The position numbers and the translations under genes were made by a program. DNA of 64,000 bases from an uncultured Lachnospiraceae bacterium (GTDB lineage: Bacteria; Bacillota; Clostridia; Lachnospirales; Lachnospiraceae): assembly GCA_947165025.1 (NCBI GenBank), contig CAMUYQ010000009.1, forward strand, positions 62,001-126,000, given 5' to 3'. A model generated the notes under the pieces. That model did no database searches. It was not told the origin of the DNA and was given only the letters and a program-made list of their open reading frames with translations. This document shows positions 47,180 through 63,971 of the stretch, in pieces. Position 1 is the stretch's first letter. Each line of letters begins with the position of its first letter.

Positions 47180-47251
47180 AGGGCTATCGCCAAACGGTAA
47201 GGCAACGGACTCTGACTCCGTCATCTGAAGGTTCGAATCCTTCTAGCCCTG
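47180..47251 (+). tRNA. tRNA-Gln (CTG anticodon)
   Basis: Cloverleaf: acceptor AGGGCTA/TAGCCCT, D-arm GCC-AAACGGTAA-GGC, anticodon arm ACGGA-CTCTGAC-TCCGT with anticodon CTG, and T-arm containing GGTTCGAATCC. The discriminator is G, and CCA is not encoded (GCGA follows). A terminator follows. It marks the boundary between core genes and the A+T-rich accessory region and is a candidate integration site. Confidence 0.95.
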
Positions 47252-47253
47252 CG

Positions 47254-47283
47254 AAAAGGAACCGGATTTCCGGTTCCTTTTTT
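47254..47283 (+). terminator. Terminator of tRNA-Gln
   Basis: AAAAGGAACCGGA / TCCGGTTCCTTTT arms with a TT loop and T-run. Confidence 0.9.
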
Positions 47284-47574
47284 GATGCTTCAAAGCCAGT
47301 ATTTATGCGCATCTTCGCACTCCTGAAAAATCATTTTCCTGCTTTATTCTGGTTATTACTGACAGGAAAAATCAGGACGATAATCCCTCAAAAAACGTCA
47401 AAATCAGATGATGTTCTGAAAGATAGGTCAATTTAGGGGTCAATTATAGGTCAATCGAGGTAACGGGGCTTATTTGCTAATTTGGATTTAACTCGATTCT
47501 AACTTAAGTTTAACTCGACAAAAAGCACTTAACGAGTTAAAATCGAGTTAGAATCGAAATAGGGAGGGGTTAAA
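47284..47574. other. Boundary region between tRNA-Gln and the island cargo
   Basis: 291 bp without a gene. Three GGTCAAT repeats start at 47426, 47438 and 47449, about one helical turn apart. After these lies the iteron array at 47489-47561. The part 47284-47420 shows nothing I can support. Confidence 0.6.
47489..47561. repeat. Two opposed arrays of 11-bp-phased repeats (TAACTCG / CGAGTTA)
   Basis: Left array: TAACTCG at 47489, the variant TAACTTA at 47500, TAACTCG at 47511, exactly 11 bp apart. Right array in opposite orientation: CGAGTTA at 47533 and 47544 and the variant CGAAATA at 47555, again 11 bp apart. The arrays are 15 bp apart and end 13 bp before the start of the next gene, overlapping where its promoter should be. 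This looks like a multi-site operator or an initiator-type binding array. Confidence 0.75.
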
Positions 47575-49227
47575 ATGCGGACAATACCACACAAAGAGGA
47601 TCTGACAGTCGAGTTTAAAAGTGATATAAAAAACCTACGTGATAATGAATTAATAGATGAAATAGTAGGAATGACTAATACAAAGGGTGGAACACTATAC
47701 TTAGGCGTAGAGGATGATGGAAAAATAACCGGAGTCAGCAATATGCATAAGGATGCTATTGGTGTAACAGCACTAATTGCAAATAAAACAGTTCCATCAG
47801 TATCTGTTCGGGCAGATATTATTACAGAAGAGGGGAAGGATGTACTAAAAATAGAAATACCGATAAGCAGAACAGTGGTGTCTACTAGTTCCGGAAGAAT
47901 GTTAAAACGAAGACTAAAAGCAGATGGGTTGCCGGAAGTTATACCAATGTTTTCTTATGAGATCGTAACCAGATTATCGGAATTAAAGTTGTTAGATTTT
48001 TCGGCAGGTCCACTTGCAGGGGCAACAATCAACGATTTTGATCCAAGTCAAAGGTTAAGATTGCGAAACATCATACAGACGAACCCTGGCGGAGAAAAAA
48101 ACCTGCTTAGTCTATCAGATGAAGAATTAGACAAGGCTTTACGCTTTACCACAGAGATAGATGGGAAAATATATCCAACAGTGACAGGTATGCTAATTCT
48201 TGGAAGAGAAAACAAAATTACAGAGTTGATGCCTACTGCCAAAGCATCGTTTCAAGTGCTAGAGGGAACGAAGGTTAGAGTAAATACGGAGACAACGGCT
48301 CCTTTACTGGAGGTATTTGAAAAATTCGAAACATATTCTGAAGCATGGAATCCTGAACGAGAAGTAGAGTATGGTCTGTTTAGGGTTGCAATTCCTGAAT
48401 TTGATAAAGCTGCATTTAGGGAAGGATTAATAAATGCATTCTGTCATAGAGATTATACGATGCTTGGAACCGTGAGAGTTCTAATTGATGATGAAGGAAT
48501 GACTATTAGCAGTCCGGGAGGATTTATTGACGGTGTTACGCTGGATAATCTTCTTACGGTGGAGCCCCATGGAAAAAATCCGGCATTGGCAGATGCATTA
48601 AAAAGAATTGGACTAGCCGAGAAAACCGGGAGGGGAATTGATCGTATATATGAAGGATCTATATTGTATGGTAGACCGTGGCCGGATTATTCCGAGACGA
48701 CTAGTACAAATGTAAAACTGTTTATTCAAAGGGCTAAAGCAGATGAGAAGTTTACCAAATTTATTTCGGATGAACAGAATAGATTGGGTAGACCGCTATC
48801 AATATATGCACTGATGATTTTGTCTATACTAAAGAATGAGAGACGACTTACAATTGATCGGATCACCGAATTGACACATTTGTCGGAAGGAAAATTAAGA
48901 GGTTCGATAGAAAATCTTATAGAAGATGGTCTTGTCGAGGGGGTTGGAAACGGTAAGTCAAGATCGTATCATCTTTCCGAAAAAGTGTATAAGGAAAACA
49001 ATAAGAGCATCCAGTATGTGAGACAGACGGGAATAGATAAGGTTGCCTTCCCGGAACTTATAATAAAACTGGCAAATACACAAGATGGTTATATTACAAA
49101 ACAGGATGTAGCAGAACTATTAAAGATAACGCCGCAACAGGCGTATTCAGAAATAAAGAAACTGATTAAAGAAGGGAAGATGTATAAGTTCTGCGGGGGA
49201 AAATATACGAAGTACAAAATGAGATAA
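47575..49227 (+). CDS. AlbA_2 (Schlafen-like) DNA-binding and HATPase protein
   Basis: 550 residues. The N-terminal AlbA_2 domain is seen in VEFKSDIKNLRDNELIDEIV and GGTLYLGVEDDGKITGV (about residues 10-60). A HATPase-like domain follows with NAFCHRDYTMLG (about residue 300) and SSPGGFIDGV. The last 150 residues hold two winged-helix-like segments. Proteins of this build are ATP-dependent regulators and are often found in phage-defence islands, but their activity is not settled. GGGAGGGG precedes the ATG. The gene is clearly more A+T-rich than the core and sits behind the iteron array, which it may bind. Confidence 0.8.
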   Translation: MRTIPHKEDLTVEFKSDIKNLRDNELIDEIVGMTNTKGGTLYLGVEDDGKITGVSNMHKDAIGVTALIANKTVPSVSVRADIITEEGKDVLKIEIPISRTVVSTSSGRMLKRRLKADGLPEVIPMFSYEIVTRLSELKLLDFSAGPLAGATINDFDPSQRLRLRNIIQTNPGGEKNLLSLSDEELDKALRFTTEIDGKIYPTVTGMLILGRENKITELMPTAKASFQVLEGTKVRVNTETTAPLLEVFEKFETYSEAWNPEREVEYGLFRVAIPEFDKAAFREGLINAFCHRDYTMLGTVRVLIDDEGMTISSPGGFIDGVTLDNLLTVEPHGKNPALADALKRIGLAEKTGRGIDRIYEGSILYGRPWPDYSETTSTNVKLFIQRAKADEKFTKFISDEQNRLGRPLSIYALMILSILKNERRLTIDRITELTHLSEGKLRGSIENLIEDGLVEGVGNGKSRSYHLSEKVYKENNKSIQYVRQTGIDKVAFPELIIKLANTQDGYITKQDVAELLKITPQQAYSEIKKLIKEGKMYKFCGGKYTKYKMR

Positions 49228-49280
49228 GGAGTTTATTGTAGTGTTAGGATTATTAACTTGAAAAAGTGTTTTATAAATAG

Positions 49281-49292
49281 TGTTCGCGAACA
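49281..49292. promoter_or_regulatory. 12-bp palindrome before the OLD-like gene
   Basis: TGTTCGCGAACA is a perfect palindrome in the 133-bp spacer, next to a possible -10 (TATAGT, 49294-49299). It could be an operator. The SOS LexA box of Gram-positives has GAAC and GTTC in the opposite order, so it is not that. Confidence 0.45.
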
Positions 49293-49360
49293 GTATAGTA
49301 ATATATATCATAATGAAAATATGATAAAATCATGACTAAAAGATAAATAGGAGTACAAGA

Positions 49361-50848
49361 ATGAGTATAAGGATGATAATTCATAATGTGAAGAATATAG
49401 ATGATTTTGAATTTGAAATCCCGACACAGAAGGGACTTTACGCACTGACGGGGGAAAACGGAACAGGAAAGAGTACAGTTATTTCTTGTGCGGCCACTGC
49501 GTTCTATGTGCCCTCTCTTTTTGACTATTTTGGCGATCCGAGAGAGGGTGCGAAGATTTCTTTTGAGTTTGATGGGAGGAGGAGAAACATAACTGCAAAC
49601 AACGATAAATGGATAAATCCTAAAGGACAGTTGAAAATAACGGGTTTCTACGAGGGTAGTATAGTATTTGGAAATAGATTCAAGGATATAGATTATTCGC
49701 TTTTGTCAAAACTAGCATTAGTGAAAAAAGAGCAATTAACAAATGCATCCAGCTTCGTAAAAGAGAGTTTGGGCGATATTTTACATGATGATAAGACATA
49801 TTATGAGAAGCTGTTTGTATTGAAATCGGGTGAAGCAAAGAAAATGAAATTAAAGAAATCGCCATATTACTATGAGAACAAAGGAGCTTTAATAAGTCAG
49901 CTTAATATGTCAACGGGAGAGAACTTGCTTTTGTCTATCCTTTTTTCTCTTGAAAACAGATTAAAAAAAGATATTTATGGTGATACGCCGGCATTTATTT
50001 TTTTGGATGAGATAGAATTGGCGCTACACTCTTCCGCGCTAAGAAGACTCGTATACTTCTTAAAAGATATTGCGGATAATCATAATTCGGTTGTTGTTTT
50101 TTCTACCCATTCTATTGAATTGATTAGAAGCATTTCGCCTGAGAATATATATTATTTACAAAGACATAATGATGGAGTAATTGAGACTATTAACCCGTGC
50201 TATCCGATTTATGCTACAAGAAATCTTGAATCATCAAACTATGGACATGATTATATTATTATGGTGGAGGATGATCTAGCAAAACAAATAGTTGAGAGAA
50301 TTCTTCGTGAAAAAAAGTTACTATCAAATAAAAGAGTACTAGTAATATCTGTTGGTGGATGGCCACAAGTATTACGTTTTGCATATGATACGATTCGATC
50401 CAATCTTGCTTTAAGTACAACAAAGATTCTTATAGTTCTAGACCGTGATATAAAGAATATGGTATCACCATTTATGAAGAAGGAACATATTGGTTTTGCT
50501 AATGCACCGGTTTATTTACCAATAAAGAGTCTTGAAAAATATTTGCTTGAAAAACTTGTTGATCATGTTGATATTACGCTTTTTCGTGAACTGAATGATT
50601 ATCTCTTTCAAGGAAGGTCACTAGATGATATTGTTCGTAATTATATGACAGGTATAAAAACAGGAAAAATAAAAGATGAAGAGAAAATCAAAAATGGAAA
50701 AAGCCTATATGATGAGTTGCACAATGAATTAGTTCAACTAAGGAAAAATGATAAAGATTTAATAGATATTATTGTGCAGTATCTATTTTCAACAAATAAT
50801 CCGGAAATAGAAGAATTGTCAGGTTTTTTTCAAGAGAGATTGAAATAG
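49361..50848 (+). CDS. OLD-like ATPase with TOPRIM nuclease domain
   Basis: 495 residues. The ATPase domain has Walker A GENGTGKST (K37), the Walker B region IFLDEIELAL (D216, E217) and H-loop FSTHS. The second domain has TOPRIM features: the acidic residue E303 in IMVEDDLAK and the D361-x-D363 pair in IVLDRD. This is the architecture of OLD-family nucleases, used by phages and in anti-phage systems such as Gabija GajA. No GajB-like UvrD helicase is next to it, so it may be a single-gene OLD system or work with its neighbours. It is A+T-rich like the rest of the cargo. Confidence 0.8.
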   Translation: MSIRMIIHNVKNIDDFEFEIPTQKGLYALTGENGTGKSTVISCAATAFYVPSLFDYFGDPREGAKISFEFDGRRRNITANNDKWINPKGQLKITGFYEGSIVFGNRFKDIDYSLLSKLALVKKEQLTNASSFVKESLGDILHDDKTYYEKLFVLKSGEAKKMKLKKSPYYYENKGALISQLNMSTGENLLLSILFSLENRLKKDIYGDTPAFIFLDEIELALHSSALRRLVYFLKDIADNHNSVVVFSTHSIELIRSISPENIYYLQRHNDGVIETINPCYPIYATRNLESSNYGHDYIIMVEDDLAKQIVERILREKKLLSNKRVLVISVGGWPQVLRFAYDTIRSNLALSTTKILIVLDRDIKNMVSPFMKKEHIGFANAPVYLPIKSLEKYLLEKLVDHVDITLFRELNDYLFQGRSLDDIVRNYMTGIKTGKIKDEEKIKNGKSLYDELHNELVQLRKNDKDLIDIIVQYLFSTNNPEIEELSGFFQERLK

Positions 50849-50910: not shown

Positions 50911-51135
50911 ATGGGAATTTATAGTCTTCCACATATTAATGATACGTTATTTTACATTAATAAAGAAGTAAAAGTAACAAGGGTTTATGCGCTGTTTGGA
51001 CTTGTAATAGTGCAGTATTTGAATGAACATAAAGAGTTTTGCGTGGATTATCATGCGCTTTCACTTAAGCCAGATAATACAAATAGTATTTCTTTATATT
51101 TATTCGAGGGAGAAAACCATGAGCAGTATAGATAA
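50911..51135 (+). CDS. Small protein leading the ABC-3C-like cluster
   Basis: 74 residues, beta-rich and without a membrane segment (YSLPHINDTLFYINKEVKV...). It overlaps the next gene by 17 bp, so the frame is probably real and coupled. I do not recognise it; it could be a small accessory component of the downstream system, or an antitoxin-like inhibitor of the REase-like protein. The ribosome site is weak. Confidence 0.5.
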   Translation: MGIYSLPHINDTLFYINKEVKVTRVYALFGLVIVQYLNEHKEFCVDYHALSLKPDNTNSISLYLFEGENHEQYR

Positions 51136-52072
51136 GTATATTGAAGGTAATATGACGGGAGATTCATGGGAGGAGTTATGTGTTCAATGTTATCGCATCC
51201 GCTTTCAAGTAGACAATTATACCCCTATACCGGCTATACAAGGTGGCGATGCGGGAATAGAGGGTTTTACCAATAAAGGAATAGTTCATCAGTGTTATTG
51301 CCCGGAACGAGAATATTCAGATAAGGATTTATATGAACACCAGCGTAACAAACTTACGGCTGATATAGAAAAGCTAAAAAACAATGCTGATAGACTAAAG
51401 AAATTAGGTGTACCACCTATTACAGAATGGCATTTTAATATTCCAGAATACAGGGATTCAAGAATACTAGAACATGCAGAAACCAAACGGCAGGAAATTC
51501 TTAAGGAAAAAAAGGACAGACCTTCCAATTATGAGCATATTACGGAGAGTTTTCAAATTGTTATTAAAACCGCAGAAGACTTTAAACCAGAAATATCTAG
51601 AATCATCCGCACAAATATGTTAGATATGAAACTTAATTTGGTAATCAACCATCGAACAGAGCCAGATTGGTCTAAATGTGATTCTGAAAAGATCGCTAAT
51701 ATACGGAGGAAAATAAAGGCGATCATGCTTACAGATGAGGATGATGAAAGCTTAAATAAAATAACCGGGTATTATGCGGAGTATTATATCAGTGGTTTGG
51801 AAATACTTAATGATTTGCGTATACGCTTCCCGGAGATTTATGAAGATATTTATCAACTTGAGAAAACCTACAAACGTGAGGTATCAATAAAAACACTTAT
51901 GAATACAGACAAGGTTATGAATCGTAATTTGTTTGAGACTATTCTCGATGATTTTTATTCTAAACTCAAATCTGATTTTTCTATAAGTCTAACGGAGGCA
52001 TCAATCTGTGAACTAAAGCAAGATTTAATTGCTAGTTGGCTTGCGGATTGCTCCATGGAATTTAAAGGATAG
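51119..52072 (+). CDS. REase-like component of an ABC-3C-type system
   Basis: 317 residues from ATG 51119 (GAGGGAG upstream); a longer in-frame start at 51023 overlaps the previous gene more deeply. The N-terminus has the PD-(D/E)xK fold pattern: W17-E18 on the first helix, then GGD44AGIE48GF, then a strand GIVHQCYCPE. In active nucleases of this type the strand is QxK; here the position is Tyr60, so the active site is changed. The rest is helical. In ABC-three-component systems, as described computationally, such a protein carries the C-terminal effector-linked region. Activity is uncertain. Confidence 0.65.
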   Translation: MSSIDKYIEGNMTGDSWEELCVQCYRIRFQVDNYTPIPAIQGGDAGIEGFTNKGIVHQCYCPEREYSDKDLYEHQRNKLTADIEKLKNNADRLKKLGVPPITEWHFNIPEYRDSRILEHAETKRQEILKEKKDRPSNYEHITESFQIVIKTAEDFKPEISRIIRTNMLDMKLNLVINHRTEPDWSKCDSEKIANIRRKIKAIMLTDEDDESLNKITGYYAEYYISGLEILNDLRIRFPEIYEDIYQLEKTYKREVSIKTLMNTDKVMNRNLFETILDDFYSKLKSDFSISLTEASICELKQDLIASWLADCSMEFKG

Positions 52073-52077
52073 ATAAT

Positions 52078-52560
52078 ATGAATGAAATATCAATTGATTA
52101 TGTAGGTATTGTTTTTGATGAAAAACCGGATGCGGTTCCATATAAGTATCGAATTAGCTATAAGGTTACACAGTTATGCTTAATAATGAAAATATGCGGC
52201 CGGGGAAGTGTTTGCTCCTTGATAAAACTTCATATGATTTCTCATGCATTAATCTCCAATGACAATATGAGAAGTCTTATTGAATTTGTGAATGGTTCCA
52301 ATAGTTTGCCAGTTGTTCGATTTGATCCATCAGTCAACAGAGCTTTGACATATGCTATGGGATTTGGATTGATTGAGCAACAGAAAAATTCAAGATTTAA
52401 GCTTTCTGATCGCGGGCGTCTTCTTACGGAACAAATTCTGGCGGTGGGAGATCTAATGGTAGCCGAAATTAGTGATTTGAGTTTATTATCAAAAAAATTA
52501 ACAGAGAGAATGGTGGATGAAATAGAGTATAAGTGGAGAGCAAGGGATGCTAAGGATTAA
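52078..52560 (+). CDS. Middle component of an ABC-3C-type system
   Basis: 160 residues, five bases after the REase-like gene. No enzymatic motif. A winged-helix-like C-terminal part (RFKLSDRGRLLTEQILAVG) is preceded by a helical region. Position between an effector-like gene and an SMC-like ATPase, and this size, match the 'middle component' proteins of ABC-3C systems. The stop overlaps the next start by 14 bp, so translation is coupled. Confidence 0.6.
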   Translation: MNEISIDYVGIVFDEKPDAVPYKYRISYKVTQLCLIMKICGRGSVCSLIKLHMISHALISNDNMRSLIEFVNGSNSLPVVRFDPSVNRALTYAMGFGLIEQQKNSRFKLSDRGRLLTEQILAVGDLMVAEISDLSLLSKKLTERMVDEIEYKWRARDAKD

Positions 52561-54583
52561 CAGATTAAGAATTGAAATTAACACAATAAAAGGCATATTT
52601 GGAATTGATGAAACATTTCAAGATGGCTTGACTTTTATCTCAAGCCTTGACAATACATGTGGAAAGAGTTCTATTTTAGCCGCGATATATTATTGCCTTG
52701 GATTTGAGCAGATTTTAGGAGGTGCTGGAGGGGTCGGAAGTAAGGTTCTTACATCGGCATTTAAGACCATTATCGAGGACGATAAAGAATCATTAACAGT
52801 AACAGAATCCGGAGCATATCTTGAAATCAATAATGGAAATGAAACGCGAACGATATACAGAAGCATAAAATCAGAAAGCAAAGATAATAGACTTGTGACG
52901 GTATATTATGGGGATTATGATTCAATCTATAATCATAAAACATTAGCTGAAGATTTTTATGTTAATGTTCAAAGCTCTGCAACAAGCAAAAAGGGATTTC
53001 ATACATGTCTTGAAGAGTTTCTTCATATGGAACTCCCATTAGTACAAACATCGGATGGTAATGAAAGAAAATTGTATTTACAAGTAATATTTGCGTCTAT
53101 GTTTATTGAACAGAAACATGGATGGTCTGACATTTTGTCTGGAATGCCAGTATTTGGGATTCGCGAATCAAAAAAACGAATAGTTGAGTATATATTAGGG
53201 CTAGACACGTTGAATAATGAAAAGGAGAGGGATCAACTAAAAACTGTTAAAACAAAGTTGGAACACAAGTGGCACCAAGTTGTTTCTGATTTCGAAGACT
53301 ATGTTAATTCGGAATTGTGTGAGGTTATTAATCTCCCTACACATCCCCGAGTACTATCGGATATTGACTACTCGAGAATAGTTGTGTCTGTCATGGGAGA
53401 ATCATCTGTAGAAGAGGAAATTCAATCCCTTAAAAATATGTATAACAATCTACGACAACTGAAGCCTCGTGTTTGTGATAATTATGATGCTCTAAACATA
53501 GAGTTATCTGAGACACAAAAGCAAATCCTTGTCTTTGAAAATCGCATAAATGAAATAGAAAAAGATATAGCGAGTTATGATGAGGCAATAAAGAGACTAA
53601 CCGCAGATTTAGAAGTTGTTAGTTCTGATATTAGAAATAATACTGACGCTGCTCGACTTCAAAAGTTTGGATCTGAAACGGTAGGTGGAGACATTTCGGT
53701 AGACATTTGCCCTGTTTGCAAACAACAAATACAAGATAATTTATTTGATGCAAAGGTTGTAAGCGGATTTATGAGCATTGAGGATAATATTAGACATCTT
53801 AAGGAACAAAAAAAGATGCTCGAATTTACATTAAGAAGTCGAAAAGAATCACGAGAAATAATAGTTGTTGAAAAAAATGAATTGGAAATGCGACTGCAGA
53901 GACTTAGAAAGCTTGCATTTGCTATCCGCTCGGATCTCTTTTCAACTGTAGATACAGAGGCATCCGAAGCAATCATGCTTAAGCGCATTGAGATAAGTAA
54001 TCGTATTGAACAATTATCAAAACTGAAAGATAAAACAGATTATTTTCTAGAGCAACTTAAGGAGTTGTCGATTGAGTGGAGAGCATATATTGATCGAAAA
54101 GGACGCCTTCCCAAATCAGACATCTCAGATTCTGATAATGAGAAGATTATTCTTTTAAAAAAGAAGTTTATAGATAATCTAATACAATATCATTATAGTA
54201 GTTTGTCAAGTTTTGATGGTATTGATATCTCCATGAAGTCATCATTACTTCCAACAATAGATGGATTTGATATGAAGTTTGATTCGTCAGCCAGTGATGG
54301 TATACGTGTGATTTGGGCTTTTACATTGGCATTATTACAAGTATCAATTGAAAAAAATGGTAATCATCCGAGTATTATCATTTTTGATGAACCAGCACAA
54401 CATAGTATTGTGCCAGAAGATATTAAAAGTTTTATTGAATCAGTTATGAATATCAAGGGGTCGTTTCAAATTGTTACTGCTATTACCTTGAATAGTCAGG
54501 ATCTAAAAAGTATGATTGATGAGTTGGATGCATCGAATTATCACATAGTGCAGATTGAAGGAAAGGCATTCAAAGCATTATAA
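52547..54583 (+). CDS. SMC-like ABC ATPase with a Cys hook (ABC-3C type)
   Basis: 678 residues. The Walker A is LDNTCGKSS (K40), lacking the first Gly of the classic loop. A long coiled coil carries a central hook CPVC (C388, C391), as in Rad50 zinc hooks. Towards the C-terminus come a degenerate signature (SASDGIRVIWAF) and Walker B IIIFDEPAQHS (D614, E615). The hook would bring two arms together; the ATPase likely senses DNA or nucleoprotein and triggers the REase-like partner. This is the third member of the cluster and the best reason for the ABC-3C call. Confidence 0.8.
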   Translation: MLRINRLRIEINTIKGIFGIDETFQDGLTFISSLDNTCGKSSILAAIYYCLGFEQILGGAGGVGSKVLTSAFKTIIEDDKESLTVTESGAYLEINNGNETRTIYRSIKSESKDNRLVTVYYGDYDSIYNHKTLAEDFYVNVQSSATSKKGFHTCLEEFLHMELPLVQTSDGNERKLYLQVIFASMFIEQKHGWSDILSGMPVFGIRESKKRIVEYILGLDTLNNEKERDQLKTVKTKLEHKWHQVVSDFEDYVNSELCEVINLPTHPRVLSDIDYSRIVVSVMGESSVEEEIQSLKNMYNNLRQLKPRVCDNYDALNIELSETQKQILVFENRINEIEKDIASYDEAIKRLTADLEVVSSDIRNNTDAARLQKFGSETVGGDISVDICPVCKQQIQDNLFDAKVVSGFMSIEDNIRHLKEQKKMLEFTLRSRKESREIIVVEKNELEMRLQRLRKLAFAIRSDLFSTVDTEASEAIMLKRIEISNRIEQLSKLKDKTDYFLEQLKELSIEWRAYIDRKGRLPKSDISDSDNEKIILLKKKFIDNLIQYHYSSLSSFDGIDISMKSSLLPTIDGFDMKFDSSASDGIRVIWAFTLALLQVSIEKNGNHPSIIIFDEPAQHSIVPEDIKSFIESVMNIKGSFQIVTAITLNSQDLKSMIDELDASNYHIVQIEGKAFKAL

Positions 54584-55325: not shown

Positions 55326-55457
55326 CAAAGAATCAATCAACAGCTCTTCAGAAGGTTCCGGGAAAAACCGGGATGTCCCTGAAGAAGGAATATCGCGATA
55401 GGAAAAAGTCGCCGGAAACCTACTCAATCGATCAAAAGAAGAAAAGAGGTGAAGCGG

Positions 55458-55673
55458 ATGAGAAACACAATGATCAATCAGGTACAGGATGAATACACAG
55501 TTTTGTCGGCAAGAGAGTTGGCATCCAGGCTTCATATCGGACGAGACAAAGCGTATGCGCTGATAAAGAGCAAGAGCTTCCCGTCCATAAAGCTTGGGGG
55601 TCGCTATATCGTAACAGCCAAAGCTCTTAACGAGTGGCTTGACCAGTACGAGTACAAAACCTTTCTTGTATAG
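55458..55673 (+). CDS. xis: Excisionase-like small DNA-binding protein
   Basis: 71 residues from ATG 55458 (GAGGTG upstream). The protein has the excisionase helix-turn-helix pattern ARELASRLHIGRDKAYALIK and the wing SIKLGGRYIVTAKALNEWL, as in the HTH_17 family. It lies 11 bp before the integrase, in the usual Xis-Int order. It should bend DNA at an att site during excision. Confidence 0.88.
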   Translation: MRNTMINQVQDEYTVLSARELASRLHIGRDKAYALIKSKSFPSIKLGGRYIVTAKALNEWLDQYEYKTFLV

Positions 55674-55684
55674 GAGAGTAGTAA

Positions 55685-56929
55685 ATGGCCAGCAGGGGAA
55701 CGAAGGGACAGGGTTTCTTTAAAGATAATCCTGACGGAACTGTCACATATCGTAAGGGTGTCGGCTATAAGGACGACGGCAAGAGAAAGACTTTGACCGT
55801 TACCGCTAAGAACCGGGCGGTCTGTATGCGCCTAATGAAGGAAAAAGAGGACAACTGGCTTGCCGAGAAGGCCCGGACCGTGATCACGGATATTGATACC
55901 GTGGAAGATCTTTGTACGAGGCATCTGGTTTTTCAGATGAAGGGTGGGGAGCTCAAGCCCAAGTCTGCGGACAGAAGAGAAGGTACGATCAAAAATCAGA
56001 TCGCCAAGTACCCTATCGGACATATGCAGGTGCAGGTCGTATCGCCTACGGATATCGAGGAGCATATCAATGCACTCATTAAGAAGGATTTGTCGGTTTC
56101 TTCCATAGAAAAGGCACTGGACGTAATAAATGCGGCATATGAATGGGGAGTCGCCCGCGGTGATATCAAAGCAAACCCGGCGCTGTCGATAAAGAAGACT
56201 ATCAAAAAACGTCTGTCGAAGCTTGAGGCAAAGAATGCTGCCGATGCGGATGTGATCGTCCTGTCTGAAGAGGAAGAAAGGGCTTTTCAGGAAGAATGCC
56301 TCAAACAATATCCGACCGGCCGATACAAATACGCCGGCGGTCTGATCGGAAGAATTCTCCTTCACACAGGGATGAGAGTTGGAGAGGTCATAAGCCTTAG
56401 GTGGAAGGATTATGACAAAAAAGAAGGACTTCTTACCATAAATAAGAGCACTTCACTGATCATAAACCGTGACAGGAAGCCTGATGAAAAGAACTACAAA
56501 GCCGTAGTAGGTACAACAAAGAACCAGAAAGCCCGGGTGATCCAGCTCGGAAGCGATGCGAGAAAGGATCTTGAGCTTATGTCGGAACTCAGGCCCGGAA
56601 CACAGGACGATCTGATATGCAGGTCCAGAAATGGGAAACCGTATACGGCAACCATGTTGGAGCATTGCATGCTTACCATATATAAGAACCTCGGATTCGG
56701 AGATGATGTAAGTGGATTGCATGTGCTTCGAAGGACATTTGCCACAAGGATGTATGACAACGGTGCCGGAGTAAAGGAGATTGCTGCATATATAGGAGAT
56801 CTTGAATCCACAACAATGCAGTATTACATCGCGGCACGAAAGAAGATGAAGGTGGGATCAACAACAAAGCAGTTTGTTCCGATCCCGGTAGACAGGAATA
56901 AACCGAAAGAGGGTGATAACGATGAGTGA
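55685..56929 (+). CDS. int: Tyrosine integrase
   Basis: 414 residues. An N-terminal arm-binding domain and a core-binding helical domain are followed by the catalytic domain: R231 in HTGMRVGEVISLRW, H346-x-x-R349 in LHVLRRTFATRM, and Y380/Y381 in MQYYIA as the nucleophile. This is the Tn916/phage-type integrase of ICEs and IMEs. The att site is not adjacent; tRNA-Gln lies 8.4 kb away. The next gene overlaps the stop by 8 bp. Confidence 0.95.
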   Translation: MASRGTKGQGFFKDNPDGTVTYRKGVGYKDDGKRKTLTVTAKNRAVCMRLMKEKEDNWLAEKARTVITDIDTVEDLCTRHLVFQMKGGELKPKSADRREGTIKNQIAKYPIGHMQVQVVSPTDIEEHINALIKKDLSVSSIEKALDVINAAYEWGVARGDIKANPALSIKKTIKKRLSKLEAKNAADADVIVLSEEEERAFQEECLKQYPTGRYKYAGGLIGRILLHTGMRVGEVISLRWKDYDKKEGLLTINKSTSLIINRDRKPDEKNYKAVVGTTKNQKARVIQLGSDARKDLELMSELRPGTQDDLICRSRNGKPYTATMLEHCMLTIYKNLGFGDDVSGLHVLRRTFATRMYDNGAGVKEIAAYIGDLESTTMQYYIAARKKMKVGSTTKQFVPIPVDRNKPKEGDNDE

Positions 56930-57272
56930 GAAAAGATATCGTATTGCAGGCAGTGACAGCGACCTAGCCAGATCATATCCCGATGTGGCGAAAACGCTGT
57001 CAATATCCGGAAGGAACATGTCCAACATCTGTTATGGCTGTATGGCTTTGTTCATAAGGTGTTTGGGCTTTTGCCCGGAGAATAAGGAGGATGTAAAGAA
57101 GCTGACGGAACTCATAAAAACGATAAACGATCATAACGTGAGGCCGTGGATCATCACATCTTCCGGGAAAGTGCCCATTGGGACAGATGATGTAGCGCAA
57201 ACGTATTCTCCATTGACGGATAACTCTGCTATAGGCTGGAGCGATCCCGATATGGAAGAAGAACTCTTTTAG
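56922..57272 (+). CDS. Small protein of the mobile element
   Basis: 116 residues from ATG 56922, with a GAGGGTG site. The N-terminal half is helical and begins with a motif DLARSYPDVAKTLSISGRNMSN; the rest is short and charged. No membrane segment. It sits between int and the ParM-like gene in an apparently continuous operon. Family not recognised; it may be a partner of the actin-like protein. Confidence 0.55.
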   Translation: MSEKRYRIAGSDSDLARSYPDVAKTLSISGRNMSNICYGCMALFIRCLGFCPENKEDVKKLTELIKTINDHNVRPWIITSSGKVPIGTDDVAQTYSPLTDNSAIGWSDPDMEEELF

Positions 57273-57290
57273 AAACGGAGGATTTTTATT

Positions 57291-58277
57291 ATGAAGACAA
57301 AAGTTATAGCAGTGGATGCCGGAAAGGCTGAAACAAAGGTGGTTGCAATAGGTGAAGAGACAAAGGTAGTTCGTGATCATTTTCCGACTGCCATCGGTAA
57401 TTCAGGTGACGGCAGGGTCGATTTTCTCGACAATGTCCACACGTTCTCGTCCAAAACACTTGGCTCGATAGGTAAGGAAGTAAAGATCGGTTGTGATGAG
57501 CTTCCTATTAAAGCAGATGATGACTTCTCAAAGGATGCGGACATTAACAGGATATGCACTCTGTATGGTATTGCAAAAAACGTTGTCCCCGGCGAAACAG
57601 TAAATGTTGTTGTCGGATGCCCGCTTTCGATCTACAAGGAGAAGGATAAGAGGATGGAATATGGGCAAAACATTGTTCCGAACGGCAGGATCGAGTGTGT
57701 TGTTGACGGTAAGCCCATAGAATTTAGTGTTGATAAACGCCTGGTCTGTGCGGAGTCTACCGGAATACTGACGATGCACCCGGAGCTTTTCAGCAAAAAG
57801 GATTATGATGCTGCGATCATCGACATGGGTGGTCTTAACATGAATATCACTGCCATCAACAATTCGAACGTGATAATTGAGACATCCCATACATCGAGGC
57901 ATGGTGGCAGGATGCTCTGCCGTCAGATACAAAGACACCTCATGGATCATGGTCTTGATATTGAAGATACCCAGATCTTAAGCTCGATCATGCGCGGATT
58001 TATCAACCACCGGGATCCGGACAGGAAAGAAGAGTCAAAAGTAATAATCTCTCAGGCAGTGGGATCGTTTATCGATGAGATTGATCGTACCCTTCGTAAC
58101 AGCTGGTCGAACCTTGATACATTGGAGCTTTTCTTCATCGGTGGAACATCGTTTTTGCTGAAGGATTTCCTCGCAGAACGTTTTGGCGAGCATGCACATT
58201 TTGAAAAAGATTTCGAGACATCACGCTATGCAAATGCTGAGGGATTTGCTCGCAAGATGTATCAGAAGCTCGCCTAG
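57291..58277 (+). CDS. parM: ParM/StbA-like actin-fold ATPase
   Basis: 328 residues with the actin-fold phosphate motifs: VDAGKAETKVV (residues 8-18), IIDMGGLNMNI (about residue 175) and FIGGTSFLL (about residue 285). Such proteins segregate plasmids, and they also occur in ICE/IME elements, where they may stabilise the excised circle. No ParR partner is identified, unless the preceding small gene serves. ACGGAGG precedes the ATG. Confidence 0.85.
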   Translation: MKTKVIAVDAGKAETKVVAIGEETKVVRDHFPTAIGNSGDGRVDFLDNVHTFSSKTLGSIGKEVKIGCDELPIKADDDFSKDADINRICTLYGIAKNVVPGETVNVVVGCPLSIYKEKDKRMEYGQNIVPNGRIECVVDGKPIEFSVDKRLVCAESTGILTMHPELFSKKDYDAAIIDMGGLNMNITAINNSNVIIETSHTSRHGGRMLCRQIQRHLMDHGLDIEDTQILSSIMRGFINHRDPDRKEESKVIISQAVGSFIDEIDRTLRNSWSNLDTLELFFIGGTSFLLKDFLAERFGEHAHFEKDFETSRYANAEGFARKMYQKLA

Positions 58278-58613
58278 GATCCTGGCACAAGGTGATACGA
58301 CCACCCCGCCAGGGTCCCGGTGGTCGTAACAGCCGGATAACTCGGTAAAAAGCACCTCTTTACCCCTGTTACGACCACGTCTGTAGCTGCCAAGTGGCTG
58401 TATCTACCGTATTTTTTGATCTACATGGCAGCTACAGACAAAACCACTACCATCCCCCGCAAAAAAGCGGCAGGATCTCCCCCCGGATCCCTCTTGGGGA
58501 TGGTAGGCAAGTTTCGCATTGTGGCAAGCCACAATGCAAACTTGCCAGTGGGCTTCGCCCCCTTGGAACCCCCTTCTGCACCCCGCCAGGGGATATCAAA
58601 GGATGTGATCACA
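58278..58613. other. Inverted-repeat-rich region, candidate oriT
   Basis: 336 bp without a gene, just before mobC and relaxase. It holds four inverted repeats: (1) 58296-58305 with 58319-58328; (2) GTGGTCGTAACAG 58320-58332 with 58366-58378; (3) 14-bp arms 58379-58392 and 58426-58439; (4) 58506-58525 with 58528-58546 (19 paired bases, one bulge). Repeats 1 and 2 share the same middle arm and so are mutually exclusive. The last repeat is followed by a GGGCTTCGCCCC stretch. Position before mobC-relaxase fits a transfer origin; the nick site is not known. An open frame crossing this region (58416 onward) is Pro-rich and unlikely to be coding. Confidence 0.65.
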
Positions 58614-59006
58614 ATGCAACGCGCAAACCGCAAACGAAACCGAGCCGTCACCGTACGGATGAACGATCGCGAATATGCCCGCATGCAGAAGAAGATAGCC
58701 GAGTCCGGGCTGTCCCAGCAGGCATATATCATAAGTGCGGTCTGCTCGTATCCGATCACATCATCTGACGAGATGGCGGAGCTTAAGAACATAAGCAGGA
58801 CGTTTTCGGACTTTGAGCGGCAGATACGCGGTATGGCGACGAATGTGAATCAGATGGCTCATGTCGCAAACGGTCAGGGGCAGGTAGCGAGTGAGAAGAA
58901 ACTGGAAGAGTTGGCGGAACAGATCCGTGATTACCGGAGAGAGAGTGAGGCTATATGGCAATCAATAAGGTCGTCAATAACGGGGGCTGTTCACACGGAG
59001 CCATGA
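58614..59006 (+). CDS. mobC: MobC-like relaxosome accessory protein
   Basis: 130 residues from ATG 58614. The N-terminus is basic and then a ribbon-helix-helix fold (AVTVRMNDREYARMQKKIAESGLSQQAYI), typical of MobC proteins that open oriT DNA. The C-terminal half is a helical bundle (FERQIRGMATNVNQMAHVAN). The frame continues upstream to 58416, but that part is unlike MobC and overlaps the repeats. It overlaps the relaxase gene by 52 bp. Confidence 0.85.
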   Translation: MQRANRKRNRAVTVRMNDREYARMQKKIAESGLSQQAYIISAVCSYPITSSDEMAELKNISRTFSDFERQIRGMATNVNQMAHVANGQGQVASEKKLEELAEQIRDYRRESEAIWQSIRSSITGAVHTEP

Positions 59007-60199
59007 GAAATGCCATAGAATATGTTCTGCGGGATAACTCGCTTGAGGAAGAGTATATAGAGATAACCGGTCCATATAACGGGGAGACTATAAATTATGA
59101 TGAGGTATACCAGACGTGGCTTGCGGAAAAGAGAATGTGGGATAAAGACTCCGGCAGGATGTACGCCCACAATATCATCAGCTTCCATAAGGATGAACAG
59201 ATAACACCGGAGCAGGTACTTGAGATCGGCAGGCAGTTCGTAGACAGTTTCTTTCCAGAACACCAGAGTCTGATAACAGTACACCGGGACAAAGAGCATC
59301 TGCACTGTCATATCCTGACGAACAGCGTGTCGTATGTTGACGGGCATAAGCTTCATCAGACAAAGCATGATCTGCAGATGCAGAAGGACTTTACCAATGA
59401 ATTATGCCGGGATCAGGGGCTAAGTGTAGCAGAAAAGGGTCATCATTTTGACGGATCCATTATAGAACAGGGAGAGATTACAGCATGGAGTAAGGATAAA
59501 TACAATCTCCTCATCAATAATCAAAAAGACAGTTTCGTTGCCGATTGCGCACTGGCGATCATGAGTGTAGTGGATAGAGGTTGTTGTAGCCGGGATGATT
59601 TTATATCAGAAATGGCACAGCAGGGATGGGAGGTACAGTGGCTGGATAACAGAAAACACATCGTATTTGAGAATGAGAACGGAGACAAAGTCCGTGACAG
59701 CAGGATCGAGAACACTTTTGCAGGATTAGTAGTGAACAAGGAGGCGCTGAACCATGAATTTGAAAGACAGAAACAGCTCAGACTCGAGCAGCTTGCAGCC
59801 GAACAGGAACTTGAAGAAGCAAGAAGAATTGAAGAAGAACGAGAATACGCCGAATACGAACAGTACATCGCAGAGATCGAAGCAGCTGTCGCCGGACATA
59901 ATAATGAAGAAGCAGTCCGAGACGATTCAGCAACTTATCACAGAGAACACGACCTTAAGGAAACAGATCATGGAAAGGAGCGAAGGGAACCCAGACACGG
60001 AACAGACGATATCAGATCTTTCCTCGCAGATATCGATGCTCAAGAAAAAGGTGCTCGATCAAAAGCAAGAAATAGTGGACTTAAACGAAAAGAACGCGAA
60101 GCTGAACAGCAGCGACTTGCAATTAAAAGAAGCCAGGAGCATGAAAGAGCAAGCCGAGCAAGACATGCGAGAAGCCACAACATTGGTCTCGGACTTTGA
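58955..60199 (+). CDS. Relaxase/mobilization nuclease
   Basis: 414 residues. The relaxase core has a histidine cluster for metal: H110, H115, H117, H119 in VHRDKEHLHCHILTNSV, and an N-terminal NAIEYVL where the catalytic Tyr would sit. It nicks oriT and stays attached to the strand during transfer. Beyond about residue 265 the protein is a charged coiled coil rich in Glu, Arg and Gln. From 59754 on, this tail is also coding in another frame. Confidence 0.9.
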   Translation: MAINKVVNNGGCSHGAMRNAIEYVLRDNSLEEEYIEITGPYNGETINYDEVYQTWLAEKRMWDKDSGRMYAHNIISFHKDEQITPEQVLEIGRQFVDSFFPEHQSLITVHRDKEHLHCHILTNSVSYVDGHKLHQTKHDLQMQKDFTNELCRDQGLSVAEKGHHFDGSIIEQGEITAWSKDKYNLLINNQKDSFVADCALAIMSVVDRGCCSRDDFISEMAQQGWEVQWLDNRKHIVFENENGDKVRDSRIENTFAGLVVNKEALNHEFERQKQLRLEQLAAEQELEEARRIEEEREYAEYEQYIAEIEAAVAGHNNEEAVRDDSATYHREHDLKETDHGKERREPRHGTDDIRSFLADIDAQEKGARSKARNSGLKRKEREAEQQRLAIKRSQEHERASRARHARSHNIGLGL

Positions 60200-61958: not shown

Positions 61959-62288
61959 TCATTTTTCATAATCTTCTTTTCGAAAAATGACCTGACCATT
62001 ATTATCGATTTCCATAACGTATGTTCCATCCTGCAGATGTAGAATAATATCTGATGAAACAGAAGCCTCGCCAATGGTTATATTGGCTGAATAACGTTGC
62101 TTTTTGGGGAACAACTGCTTCTCTTCTCTGTTGACCTCAATATATTTTCGGTATCGCTGTTCTTTTGTTTCTAGAGCTATGGATTTTTGGATTATGTCAG
62201 AGATCCTATTTGAGCGTTTTGTGTCATTCTGCTCAAATGCTTTTACCATTTCAGCAAGTGCATCAGTTTTCTTAACTGCCCGGTTCAT
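61959..62288 (-). CDS. Small protein, third gene of the AgrB operon
   Basis: 109 residues from ATG 62288, 1 bp after the stop of the preceding gene (GGGG 8 bp upstream). Basic helical N-terminal two thirds and a beta-rich C-terminal part with SDIILHLQDGTYVMEIDNNG. No membrane segment. The sequence is not recognised. It is convergent with the vapD-like gene with 21 bp between them. Confidence 0.55.
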   Translation of the reverse strand: MNRAVKKTDALAEMVKAFEQNDTKRSNRISDIIQKSIALETKEQRYRKYIEVNREEKQLFPKKQRYSANITIGEASVSSDIILHLQDGTYVMEIDNNGQVIFRKEDYEK

Positions 62289-62289
62289 A

Positions 62290-63390
62290 TTATTTCCCCA
62301 ATGTTTTTACAATATCACATACGCTATTAACTCGGTTGATATAGTTCTGAAGACATGTTTCAATCTTATACCAGTTCAGAAAAGACAGAAGATCAAAGAA
62401 CTGTTCTCTGTTTTTTATGGAGATACCCATGCTTAAAAATGGATTGCCATCAACTACAATATCGTAATATGTGATAGTCATGAAATCTTCCCAGGGAGTA
62501 TTTACATTATAAACATACTCACTGTTAAGACTGGCAATTAGTGAAGTCCGTAGTTCAAATGAAAGCTTAATGAGGGAATTTGCATTTCCGGGTATATCGT
62601 GGATCTTTGCAGCAGACATTTTGCTACCTTCAATTATTGTATACTGGGTGTATCTTCCATCTTTGTATATACGGAAGTGCGTGCGAACTTCGTTACTGTT
62701 TTCCGGAATACCGAAAAGGTCATTTGAAACATACATTCCAATTCCGGCAAAGTATCCTTTCAGCAATTCAGCATTCCGATCAGGATCGGTTTGCCCAATA
62801 TCCTGCAATAATTGCTCTGTCAAATCATTTATATTGCTGCGGAACGCATACAGGTGATCGATGTAAACGGGTAGTTTTCCCAAGAAATGTTTCGTAATAG
62901 CGATATTTTGGTTTTGAGGAAGCTGTATTGATATTCCACCTTCTATTTGCTCTCGAAATAGATCTTCCTTAGTTCGAAGGCGATCTTCACGTAAAGATAA
63001 CTCTTTTCTTTCTTCCTCAACACAGAAGGCAGAAGCCTGCTGCTTTCGTTGTTCATAGTATTGTTCAAGGCACTTATCATATCCAAGAATAATATCCAGC
63101 TTTCTCATGGGGTATTTTGAATCATCACTTTGCAAAAGTTTCGCAAGCATTGCAAATGCGCAACAAACGCTTGCAATTGCGGCGATTTGCATGAGTAGAA
63201 AACAGGCAGGACGATTTTTAACAGAGATCTGAAAATAGGATGATGCAGCGAAACCTGTACCAGTAGATGTCAGAAAACAAGTAATCCCGGTTGTTATTTG
63301 CTTCCATTTTTTGTCAAAACGAAAAAACAAAAGTGTTCCAAATCCACCATATAGAATTCCAATGACTATAAAAATTAGATACGTTACCAT
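62290..63390 (-). CDS. Membrane sensor-like protein next to AgrB
   Basis: 366 residues from ATG 63390, whose first base is the last base of the agrB stop codon. Three N-terminal membrane helices (about residues 3-23, 34-52, 62-84) are followed by a charged coiled coil (about 108-150) and a C-terminal mixed domain. No histidine-kinase H-box or N-box is visible, so it is not AgrC-like. It may be a peptide sensor of another type. Confidence 0.6.
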   Translation of the reverse strand: MVTYLIFIVIGILYGGFGTLLFFRFDKKWKQITTGITCFLTSTGTGFAASSYFQISVKNRPACFLLMQIAAIASVCCAFAMLAKLLQSDDSKYPMRKLDIILGYDKCLEQYYEQRKQQASAFCVEEERKELSLREDRLRTKEDLFREQIEGGISIQLPQNQNIAITKHFLGKLPVYIDHLYAFRSNINDLTEQLLQDIGQTDPDRNAELLKGYFAGIGMYVSNDLFGIPENSNEVRTHFRIYKDGRYTQYTIIEGSKMSAAKIHDIPGNANSLIKLSFELRTSLIASLNSEYVYNVNTPWEDFMTITYYDIVVDGNPFLSMGISIKNREQFFDLLSFLNWYKIETCLQNYINRVNSVCDIVKTLGK

Positions 63391-63971
63391 TATGATTCGC
63401 CTGACCCTGTTATAGGATTTGATACTTTGCTCGGAAGCATCATAAGCAGCACCTCTATAAATGCGATATATATTCCCGACATCATAAAATCAGTTCTCAT
63501 GATAAAATCAATGAGTGATACAAAGAGACAAATTATAATAACATATAGAGTATGTTTCTTGTACACTGTCTGTTCATACAAGGAAAGGGACTTGTTTACG
63601 GATTCAATTGGAGCAAGCATGTATATTATCAGTGCTATAACTATCTCCGAAACAAAAGAATACAGGGTAAAATGGATTGAGCAAATGAAAGCAACAGCGC
63701 ATGCTTCAAGTATGCAAGTAATCAGCAGGCATGCCCTCTTGCTATGTGCATGATATCCACCGGCATTCTTTCGTAAGAATACGAAAGATACAAAGTACCC
63801 AATGCAATTGGATATATTATTTGTTAACAATCCCGCAATAACAACAAATATTGTATTTAAGGTAAGATAGACTAACTTGGATAATCCAAATGCAAGTATT
63901 GCTTTATCACGGGATGTTTTTCCAATGTTTAATCTGTTTACCAGATGAATCCAGATATTTGTTTCTTCCAT
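63390..63971 (-). CDS. agrB: AgrB-family peptide-processing membrane protease
   Basis: 193 residues from ATG 63971; the frame stays open to the right edge, so a longer form is not ruled out. The AgrB core is seen in FLRKNAGGYHAHSKRACLLIT (about residue 65-85), including the catalytic His, with the active-site Cys downstream in the CLLITC region. Five or so hydrophobic segments match. AgrB cleaves and cyclises the AgrD peptide for quorum signalling. No AgrD-like short frame is found immediately downstream, where it is normally placed; an upstream copy would lie past the edge. Confidence 0.85.
   Translation of the reverse strand: MEETNIWIHLVNRLNIGKTSRDKAILAFGLSKLVYLTLNTIFVVIAGLLTNNISNCIGYFVSFVFLRKNAGGYHAHSKRACLLITCILEACAVAFICSIHFTLYSFVSEIVIALIIYMLAPIESVNKSLSLYEQTVYKKHTLYVIIICLFVSLIDFIMRTDFMMSGIYIAFIEVLLMMLPSKVSNPITGSGES

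Follow-up and report, generated by a model that had tools for sequence, protein, structure and literature searches.

A cluster of four genes on contig CAMUYQ010000009.1 of an uncultured Lachnospiraceae bacterium raises the question of which defence system it encodes. It also raises the question of whether its unusual features, namely a small leading gene, a nuclease-like site with Tyr in the place of the catalytic Lys, and a Walker A motif without its first Gly, belong to this copy or to a whole family. The cluster lies in the window, that is, the whole stretch of 64,000 nucleotides that was analysed (positions 62,001 to 126,000 of the contig). Our best explanation, with a probability of about 0.8, is a Lamassu operon with four genes, in which the small protein, here called S, would act on LmuA, an Mrr-like effector of a Tyr type. 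The open reading frames (ORFs), including the leading gene of 74 residues, lie where the preliminary description of this DNA had placed them, and they overlap or nearly touch. The overlap is 17 nt between the ORFs of S and LmuA and 14 nt between those of LmuC and LmuB, with the LmuA start taken at 51119 (the mechanical ORF list has an earlier start, 51023). The four genes form an operon in the order S-LmuA-LmuC-LmuB (Table 1).

Homology searches place the cluster in Lamassu, an anti-phage and anti-plasmid family. The window LmuB matched the PADLOC LmuB model PDLC03863 at 7.6e-92, and the window LmuC matched the LmuC model PDLC03871 at 1.3e-24. The LmuA model PDLC03852 matched 22 of the 29 aligned LmuA proteins (best 9.6e-33) and five of the six distant plasmid LmuA proteins scanned. 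The window LmuA is 45–74% identical to the other 28 aligned members. An LmuB ATPase, an LmuC between LmuA and LmuB, and an LmuA effector with an N-terminal enzyme domain are all present, and we assign the cluster to Lamassu as a type II-like member. It had been described as an ABC-3C-like defence cluster, which agrees with a review that counts ABC-3C and DdmABC within the Lamassu superfamily (PMC10586767). The ABC-3C Pfam models gave no match to the window proteins at E-values up to 1; the CTD9 model weakly touched 5 of the 29 LmuA members (best 0.005). The statement that such systems have seen little experimental work is outdated, since phage tests of type II systems exist (PMC8565338) and an LmuB structure has been solved.

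Like Lamassu type II, including the DdmABC of Vibrio cholerae, the operon has a structural maintenance of chromosomes (SMC)-like LmuB with a CPxC motif, a small LmuC, an LmuA effector and the order A-C-B. It differs from type II in the additional gene S and in a Walker A loop that is longer by one residue throughout the clade carrying S (S-clade). It differs from DdmABC in the effector, as DdmA has a Cap4 domain, whereas the window LmuA appears to be an Mrr-like QxY effector. One extra gene upstream of LmuA is also reported for Lamassu systems with a metallo-beta-lactamase (MBL) nuclease and a protease-LmuA (PMC12799240). There the extra gene encodes a protease-activated nuclease of the MBL fold, whereas here it encodes a 74-residue protein of predicted SH3-like fold, and the nuclease-like part is LmuA. 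The sixth plasmid LmuA scanned, from Shewanella plasmid L058 (1365–6005), matched a different LmuA model. At this locus an MBL-type gene lies upstream, the LmuA is of a different type, and the LmuB is 29% identical to that of the window. It is probably a nuclease-protease Lamassu as described in PMC12799240, with the effector exchanged on a common sensor.

Linkage of the genes in other genomes had been set beforehand as one test on which the cluster could fail, and the gene order was found to be conserved. The LmuB search of genome contigs gave 34 relative loci with LmuB identities of 43–79%, of which L025 was dropped everywhere because its contig begins inside LmuB. The order S-A-C-B was present in 33/33 relatives with upstream sequence, with lmuA broken in one; the weakest S match had an E-value of 0.009 (L024). 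When start codons were picked by script, 28/33 relatives showed an overlap between S and lmuA (the exceptions are L007, L030, L033, L034 and L013), and 33/33 showed one between lmuC and lmuB. S also precedes LmuA in the genomes G295, G235 and G629 and on the viral contigs L049–L051. With the window counted, S stands before LmuA in 40/40 S-clade loci with enough upstream sequence to tell; the 40 include a few near-copies, and G295, G235 and G629 may duplicate other genomes. The near-copies L006, L031 and L032 were left out of all alignments. The LmuA set excludes L013 (broken lmuA) and L014 (shortened lmuA), the LmuB set excludes L013, L016, L033 and L035 (the last two with the LmuB frame cut short), and the LmuC set excludes L016 and L028.

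Plasmid records gave further matches, with LmuB in 24 and LmuA in 21. Twelve distant plasmid loci were fetched, from Bacillota, Cyanobacteriota, Pseudomonadota, Actinomycetota and Gemmatimonadota. All 12 carry LmuC and LmuB, the latter split in L062, and 11 of them also have an LmuA homologue. S was not detected in these 12 loci by hmmsearch without filters, over ORFs of at least 30 amino acids and at E-values up to 1. In a fast maximum-likelihood tree built from 43 LmuB proteins (L062 excluded), the presence of S corresponds to one change, with 32 proteins with S and 11 without it and a Shimodaira–Hasegawa-like approximate likelihood ratio test (SH-aLRT) value of 100. S appears to mark one LmuB clade, and a single gain of S is the simplest reading, with the root unsure given the long outer branches. 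LmuA matched 1/398 genomes of the phylum, namely that of the window, and 3/391 genomes of the class. LmuB matched 6/250 genomes of the family (three full systems, one C-terminal fragment and two weak local matches). The phage records gave no LmuB at an E-value of 1e-5 and no LmuA at 0.01. The C-terminal fragment, in the genome G561 (L067, 5747–6574), is a decayed copy; LmuA, LmuC and S were not found in the 14 kb fetched. In Sedimentibacter (L013, 4560–5530), an in-frame stop lies within lmuA, and S, LmuC and LmuB are present.

The window copy of the small protein S matched nothing in Pfam, NCBIfam or PADLOC at E-values up to 1, Pfam scans of 31 S members gave no family matching more than one member, and the S profile found no sequence relative in PDB up to an E-value of 10. 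The structure model predicts an SH3/Tudor-like barrel of four strands and a short fifth, with a mean predicted local distance difference test (pLDDT) value above 90 over residues 11–50. Foldseek against PDB returned Tudor, Spt5 and other SH3-like domains with a probability of about 1.0, a template modelling (TM) score of about 0.5–0.6 and E-values of 0.05–0.2. The tail of S has a conserved SISxxL-like stretch, after which many members have a Gly-Gly coinciding with a Shine-Dalgarno-like stretch that precedes lmuA. The ratio of nonsynonymous to synonymous substitution rates (omega) was 0.12–0.58 in 13/15 chosen pairs (those computable), which suggests that S is under purifying selection. S matched 5/391 genomes of the class, and the three convincing matches adjoin LmuA. 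The two remaining matches, one in a long ORF and one in a short ORF, were considered as S outside Lamassu and taken as chance. The beginning of the long ORF resembles DNA polymerase I, and no Lamassu gene was found in the 8 kb fetched around the short ORF. Because the class-genome matches adjoin LmuA, and from the other properties of S, we favour S as a putative partner of LmuA.

What S does to LmuA can be read in several ways. One possibility, which we regard as tentative, is that S is an antitoxin-like inhibitor of the LmuA nuclease and is removed once the system fires. S comes first and usually overlaps lmuA, and it accompanies LmuA in every checkable member of the clade. However, S was not detected in 11 distant relatives that carry an LmuA homologue, so that inhibition by S is not generally needed. 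It is rather doubtful that S is a DNA- or RNA-binding adaptor of the SH3/Tudor/KOW kind, by which the complex would be targeted or licensed, or that it regulates its own operon. Among its Foldseek neighbours are Tudor and Spt5-type domains, some of them from nucleic-acid complexes, but the SH3-like barrel is widespread and serves many purposes. None of these neighbours reached an E-value of 0.001, and the PDB sequence search was empty, as given above.

The altered site of LmuA was followed in 46 proteins, consisting of the window protein, 28 relatives and 17 more (L058 was excluded, having the other LmuA type). Gln58, Tyr60, Asp82 and Lys85 are present in 46/46, Asp44 and Lys78 in 45/46, Glu48 in 43/46 (Asp in the other three) and Glu18 in 42/46. 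Asp44, Glu48, Gln58 and Tyr60 persist at identities of about 20% across phyla, and Tyr60 is kept also in plasmid-borne LmuA proteins of four other phyla. Lys78, Asp82 and Lys85 sit on the helix after the Tyr60 strand. Asp44 and the strand QCYCPE, with Tyr60 at the position of the catalytic Lys, are present as the preliminary description had claimed; the Tyr is a trait of the family and no oddity of this copy. Such conservation points to an ancient altered site rather than decay. In known restriction endonucleases (REases), the Lys may be replaced by E, Q or N or recruited from elsewhere, and in PacI, an HNH enzyme, a Tyr has been proposed as the base (PMC4081073).

The profile comparison relates LmuA to the Mrr nucleases. 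Residues 12–73 of LmuA align with Mrr_cat (PF04471) at P 7e-5, sharing an E..D..(D/E)..Q pattern, and six control pairings gave P values of 0.17–0.75. The Mrr set covered 17/20 loci. The alignment pairs Asp44 with Asp, Gln58 with Gln and Tyr60 with Lys. With query columns only, P was 3e-4, and the hhalign score was 28.6; the best of 200 column shuffles scored 21.4, and the reversed alignment scored 12.0. Two subsets, of 33 rows and of 13 rows (11 distant plasmid rows and the two S-clade viral rows L050 and L051), each gave P of about 7e-4. The hhalign probabilities for Mrr_cat are modest (63%, and 26–39% in trimmed runs), and Mrr_cat was absent among the matches listed in plain Pfam scans (25/27 families in the scan of the LmuA members). 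Because Tyr replaces the catalytic Lys of the QxK motif in 46/46 aligned proteins, we class LmuA as an Mrr-like relative and not as a canonical Mrr member. The AlphaFold2 (AF2) model of LmuA (mean pLDDT 84.4) has helix 14–28, strand 55–59, helix 68–88, strand 101–107, helix 115–133 and strand 141–150, with short strand pieces also present earlier. This order of helices and strands is that expected for an REase core.

Several results weigh against our explanation. The predicted TM score (pTM) of the LmuA model is 0.57, and Foldseek of LmuA against PDB found nothing under an E-value of 0.001 (best 0.18), so that the evidence for an REase fold comes from the sequence profile and from the order of helices and strands. 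One Cap4 structure appeared at rank 19 with a probability of 0.15, and Cap4 was rejected as the nearest REase (hhalign P 0.29, with 3/5 Cap4 loci used). The missing Cap4 match counts here because release and tetramer activation were reported for the Cap4 nuclease. The PADLOC scan of the window left its LmuA unmatched by PDLC03852. The LmuA of Priestia plasmid L052 (3577–4509) has Glu18 changed to Lys, Asp44 to Gly and Lys78 to Glu, with Gln58 and Tyr60 retained, and its nuclease-like site may be dead. Interrupted genes were found among the relatives, namely lmuA in L013 and L014 and lmuB in L032, L033 and L035; the cut-short LmuB frames reflect either decay or sequence errors. S evolves fast, its start is apparently out of frame in L007, and L018 lacks a standard start codon at the corresponding position, which are the reasons why S may be dispensable at times. 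Taken with the profile, a REase-like, Mrr-related domain in LmuA is likely. The REase core claimed for the 317-residue protein, the other test set beforehand, is upheld by profile and by the order of helices and strands, and no significant match to a PDB structure accompanies it.

It is unlikely that this LmuA branch is not a nuclease at all. Under such an explanation, the REase-like domain would have lost its Lys early and would now bind DNA or serve as a scaffold, with the damage done otherwise. The Lys is missing from its canonical place in 46/46 proteins, L052 additionally lacks Glu18 and Asp44, and the PDB gave no significant fold match. However, Asp44, Glu48 (Asp in three), Gln58 and Tyr60 are held at about 20% identity, which fits kept catalysis better, and REases with E, Q or N for K exist (PMC4081073). 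Very improbable is the idea that S is a leader ORF coupling translation into lmuA and not a working protein: the end of S usually runs past the lmuA start, and the apparent lmuA Shine-Dalgarno lies within the last S codons, explaining part of the conserved Gly-Gly, but omega is below 1 in 13/15 pairs (those computable) and the family yields a confidently predicted fold.

The ATPase LmuB matches the PDB LmuB 9ux7 at 6.6e-06 over a short stretch. Gly39, Lys40, Ser41, both hook Cys, Asp614 and Glu615 are present in 43/43 LmuB rows. The Walker A motif does lack its first Gly, as had been remarked, and reads S33-L-D-N-T-C-G39-K40-S41. The form SxxNTxGKS occurs in 32/32 S-clade rows; it is a shared P-loop form and no quirk of this copy, and the idea of a defective Walker A was rejected on this ground. 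The 11 rows without S have A, G or V at the first Walker A place and a loop shorter by one residue. LmuB generally has Gln in Walker B according to section 9 of a review (PMC10586767), whereas here Glu stands in 43/43, and because of this difference Glu615 hints at genuine ATP hydrolysis by LmuB. The middle component LmuC matched Mrr_N at 0.0054, which falls short of the cut-off of that model, and its matches among PDB sequences were SMC and helix-turn-helix (HTH) proteins (best 0.0061).

Lamassu is reported to sense DNA ends or DNA structure (PMC12904381), and preprints on DdmABC and further Lamassu systems report that LmuA is released and forms tetramers (PMC12409362). The analysis shows the gene order, linkage, homology, residue conservation and one-clade distribution of S; how the system may sense DNA, free LmuA and cut, and what S may do, we infer from the studied Lamassu systems. 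LmuB, with its CPxC hook motif, and LmuC would sense foreign DNA, either ends or odd structures, and would keep LmuA inactive before that. Upon sensing, LmuA would be released and oligomerise. The Mrr-like nuclease domain of the freed LmuA would then cut DNA, and the phage or plasmid would be stopped or the cell killed. Tyr60 may do the job of the Lys, as a general base or an aid to the transition state, or Lys78 or Lys85 of the next helix may take over. S, probably co-translated with LmuA, would bind LmuA, or LmuA together with DNA, and control its folding, silence or assembly. We speculate, with less confidence than doubt, that an old branch spanning several phyla has an Mrr-like effector cutting nucleic acid by its invariant Tyr (as base or even nucleophile), and that a Bacillota-centred clade added an SH3-like gating or licensing subunit.

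Table 1. Positions in the window of the operon, its motifs and the neighbouring genes.
Feature	Position	Strand	Remarks
S, 74 aa	50911–51135	+	Predicted SH3/Tudor-like barrel; C-terminal tail less certain, with the conserved SISxxL-like stretch
LmuA, 317 aa	51119–52072	+	Effector; putative N-terminal Mrr-like REase domain (about 1–165), C-terminal part mostly helical
LmuA Asp44 codon	51248–51250	+	D of the PD-(D/E)XK site; kept in 45/46; on the Mrr Asp
LmuA Gln58-Cys59-Tyr60 codons	51290–51298	+	Replace the QxK motif; Gln58 and Tyr60 in 46/46; Tyr60 on the Mrr Lys
LmuC, 160 aa	52078–52560	+	Middle component; winged-helix-like from weak matches
LmuB, 678 aa	52547–54583	+	SMC/Rad50-like ABC ATPase
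LmuB Walker A, residues 33–41	52643–52669	+	Longer by one residue than in the 11 compared relatives that lack S
LmuB CPxC zinc-hook-like motif (C388, C391)	53708–53719	+	Both Cys in 43/43
LmuB Walker B, D614-E615	54386–54391	+	Glu present; 43/43
tRNA-Gln	47180–47252		
Schlafen/AlbA_2 gene and OLD-like ATPase gene with TOPRIM	47575–50848		Latter: PADLOC ATPase-Toprim_I-B, 3e-35
HTH_17 protein, tyrosine integrase, actin-like protein, MobC/NikA, MobA-type relaxase	55449–60196		Integrase at 55685–56929

An integrated element probably carries the operon as cargo. The Schlafen/AlbA_2 gene, the OLD-like ATPase-TOPRIM gene and the Lamassu operon lie between the tRNA-Gln and the integrase, and the first two are likely further defence genes. 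The sequence 47205–47287, covering the 3′ part of the tRNA-Gln and beyond, has an 83-base copy (99%) on a different contig of this genome (G000:C14:41818-41900), and in two genomes of the same genus (G1018 and G1024) partial copies lie downstream within one contig. Because of these copies, the repeat is probably an attachment site. The HTH_17 protein is excisionase-like, judged by its place, and the gene set at 55449–60196 is probably an integrative mobilizable element. The GC content is 0.33–0.39 across 48–56 kb and 0.42–0.50 elsewhere in the window, except at 60–64 kb (0.37–0.38). A minus-strand pair at 62290–63971 encodes what we take to resemble an AgrB-like membrane protein and a sensor kinase. 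The promoter scan was at chance level (26 vs. 28.2).

The Lamassu kind itself is already known, and the QxY site and the clade-specific fourth gene are variant features; Tyr60 and S look new as far as the full-text literature searches reached. Annotation may list systems of this kind as incomplete, because PADLOC, Pfam and NCBIfam give S no name and PADLOC misses the window LmuA. Lamassu gains a testable fourth part, together with a nuclease-like site that departs from the usual D-(D/E/Q)xK rule and has nevertheless been retained across phyla. The role of the Lys in PD-(D/E)XK enzymes is described as not fully established (PMC4081073). If LmuA cuts DNA, that role can be probed on a natural Tyr enzyme; if it does not, this branch of Lamassu has a different kind of effector.

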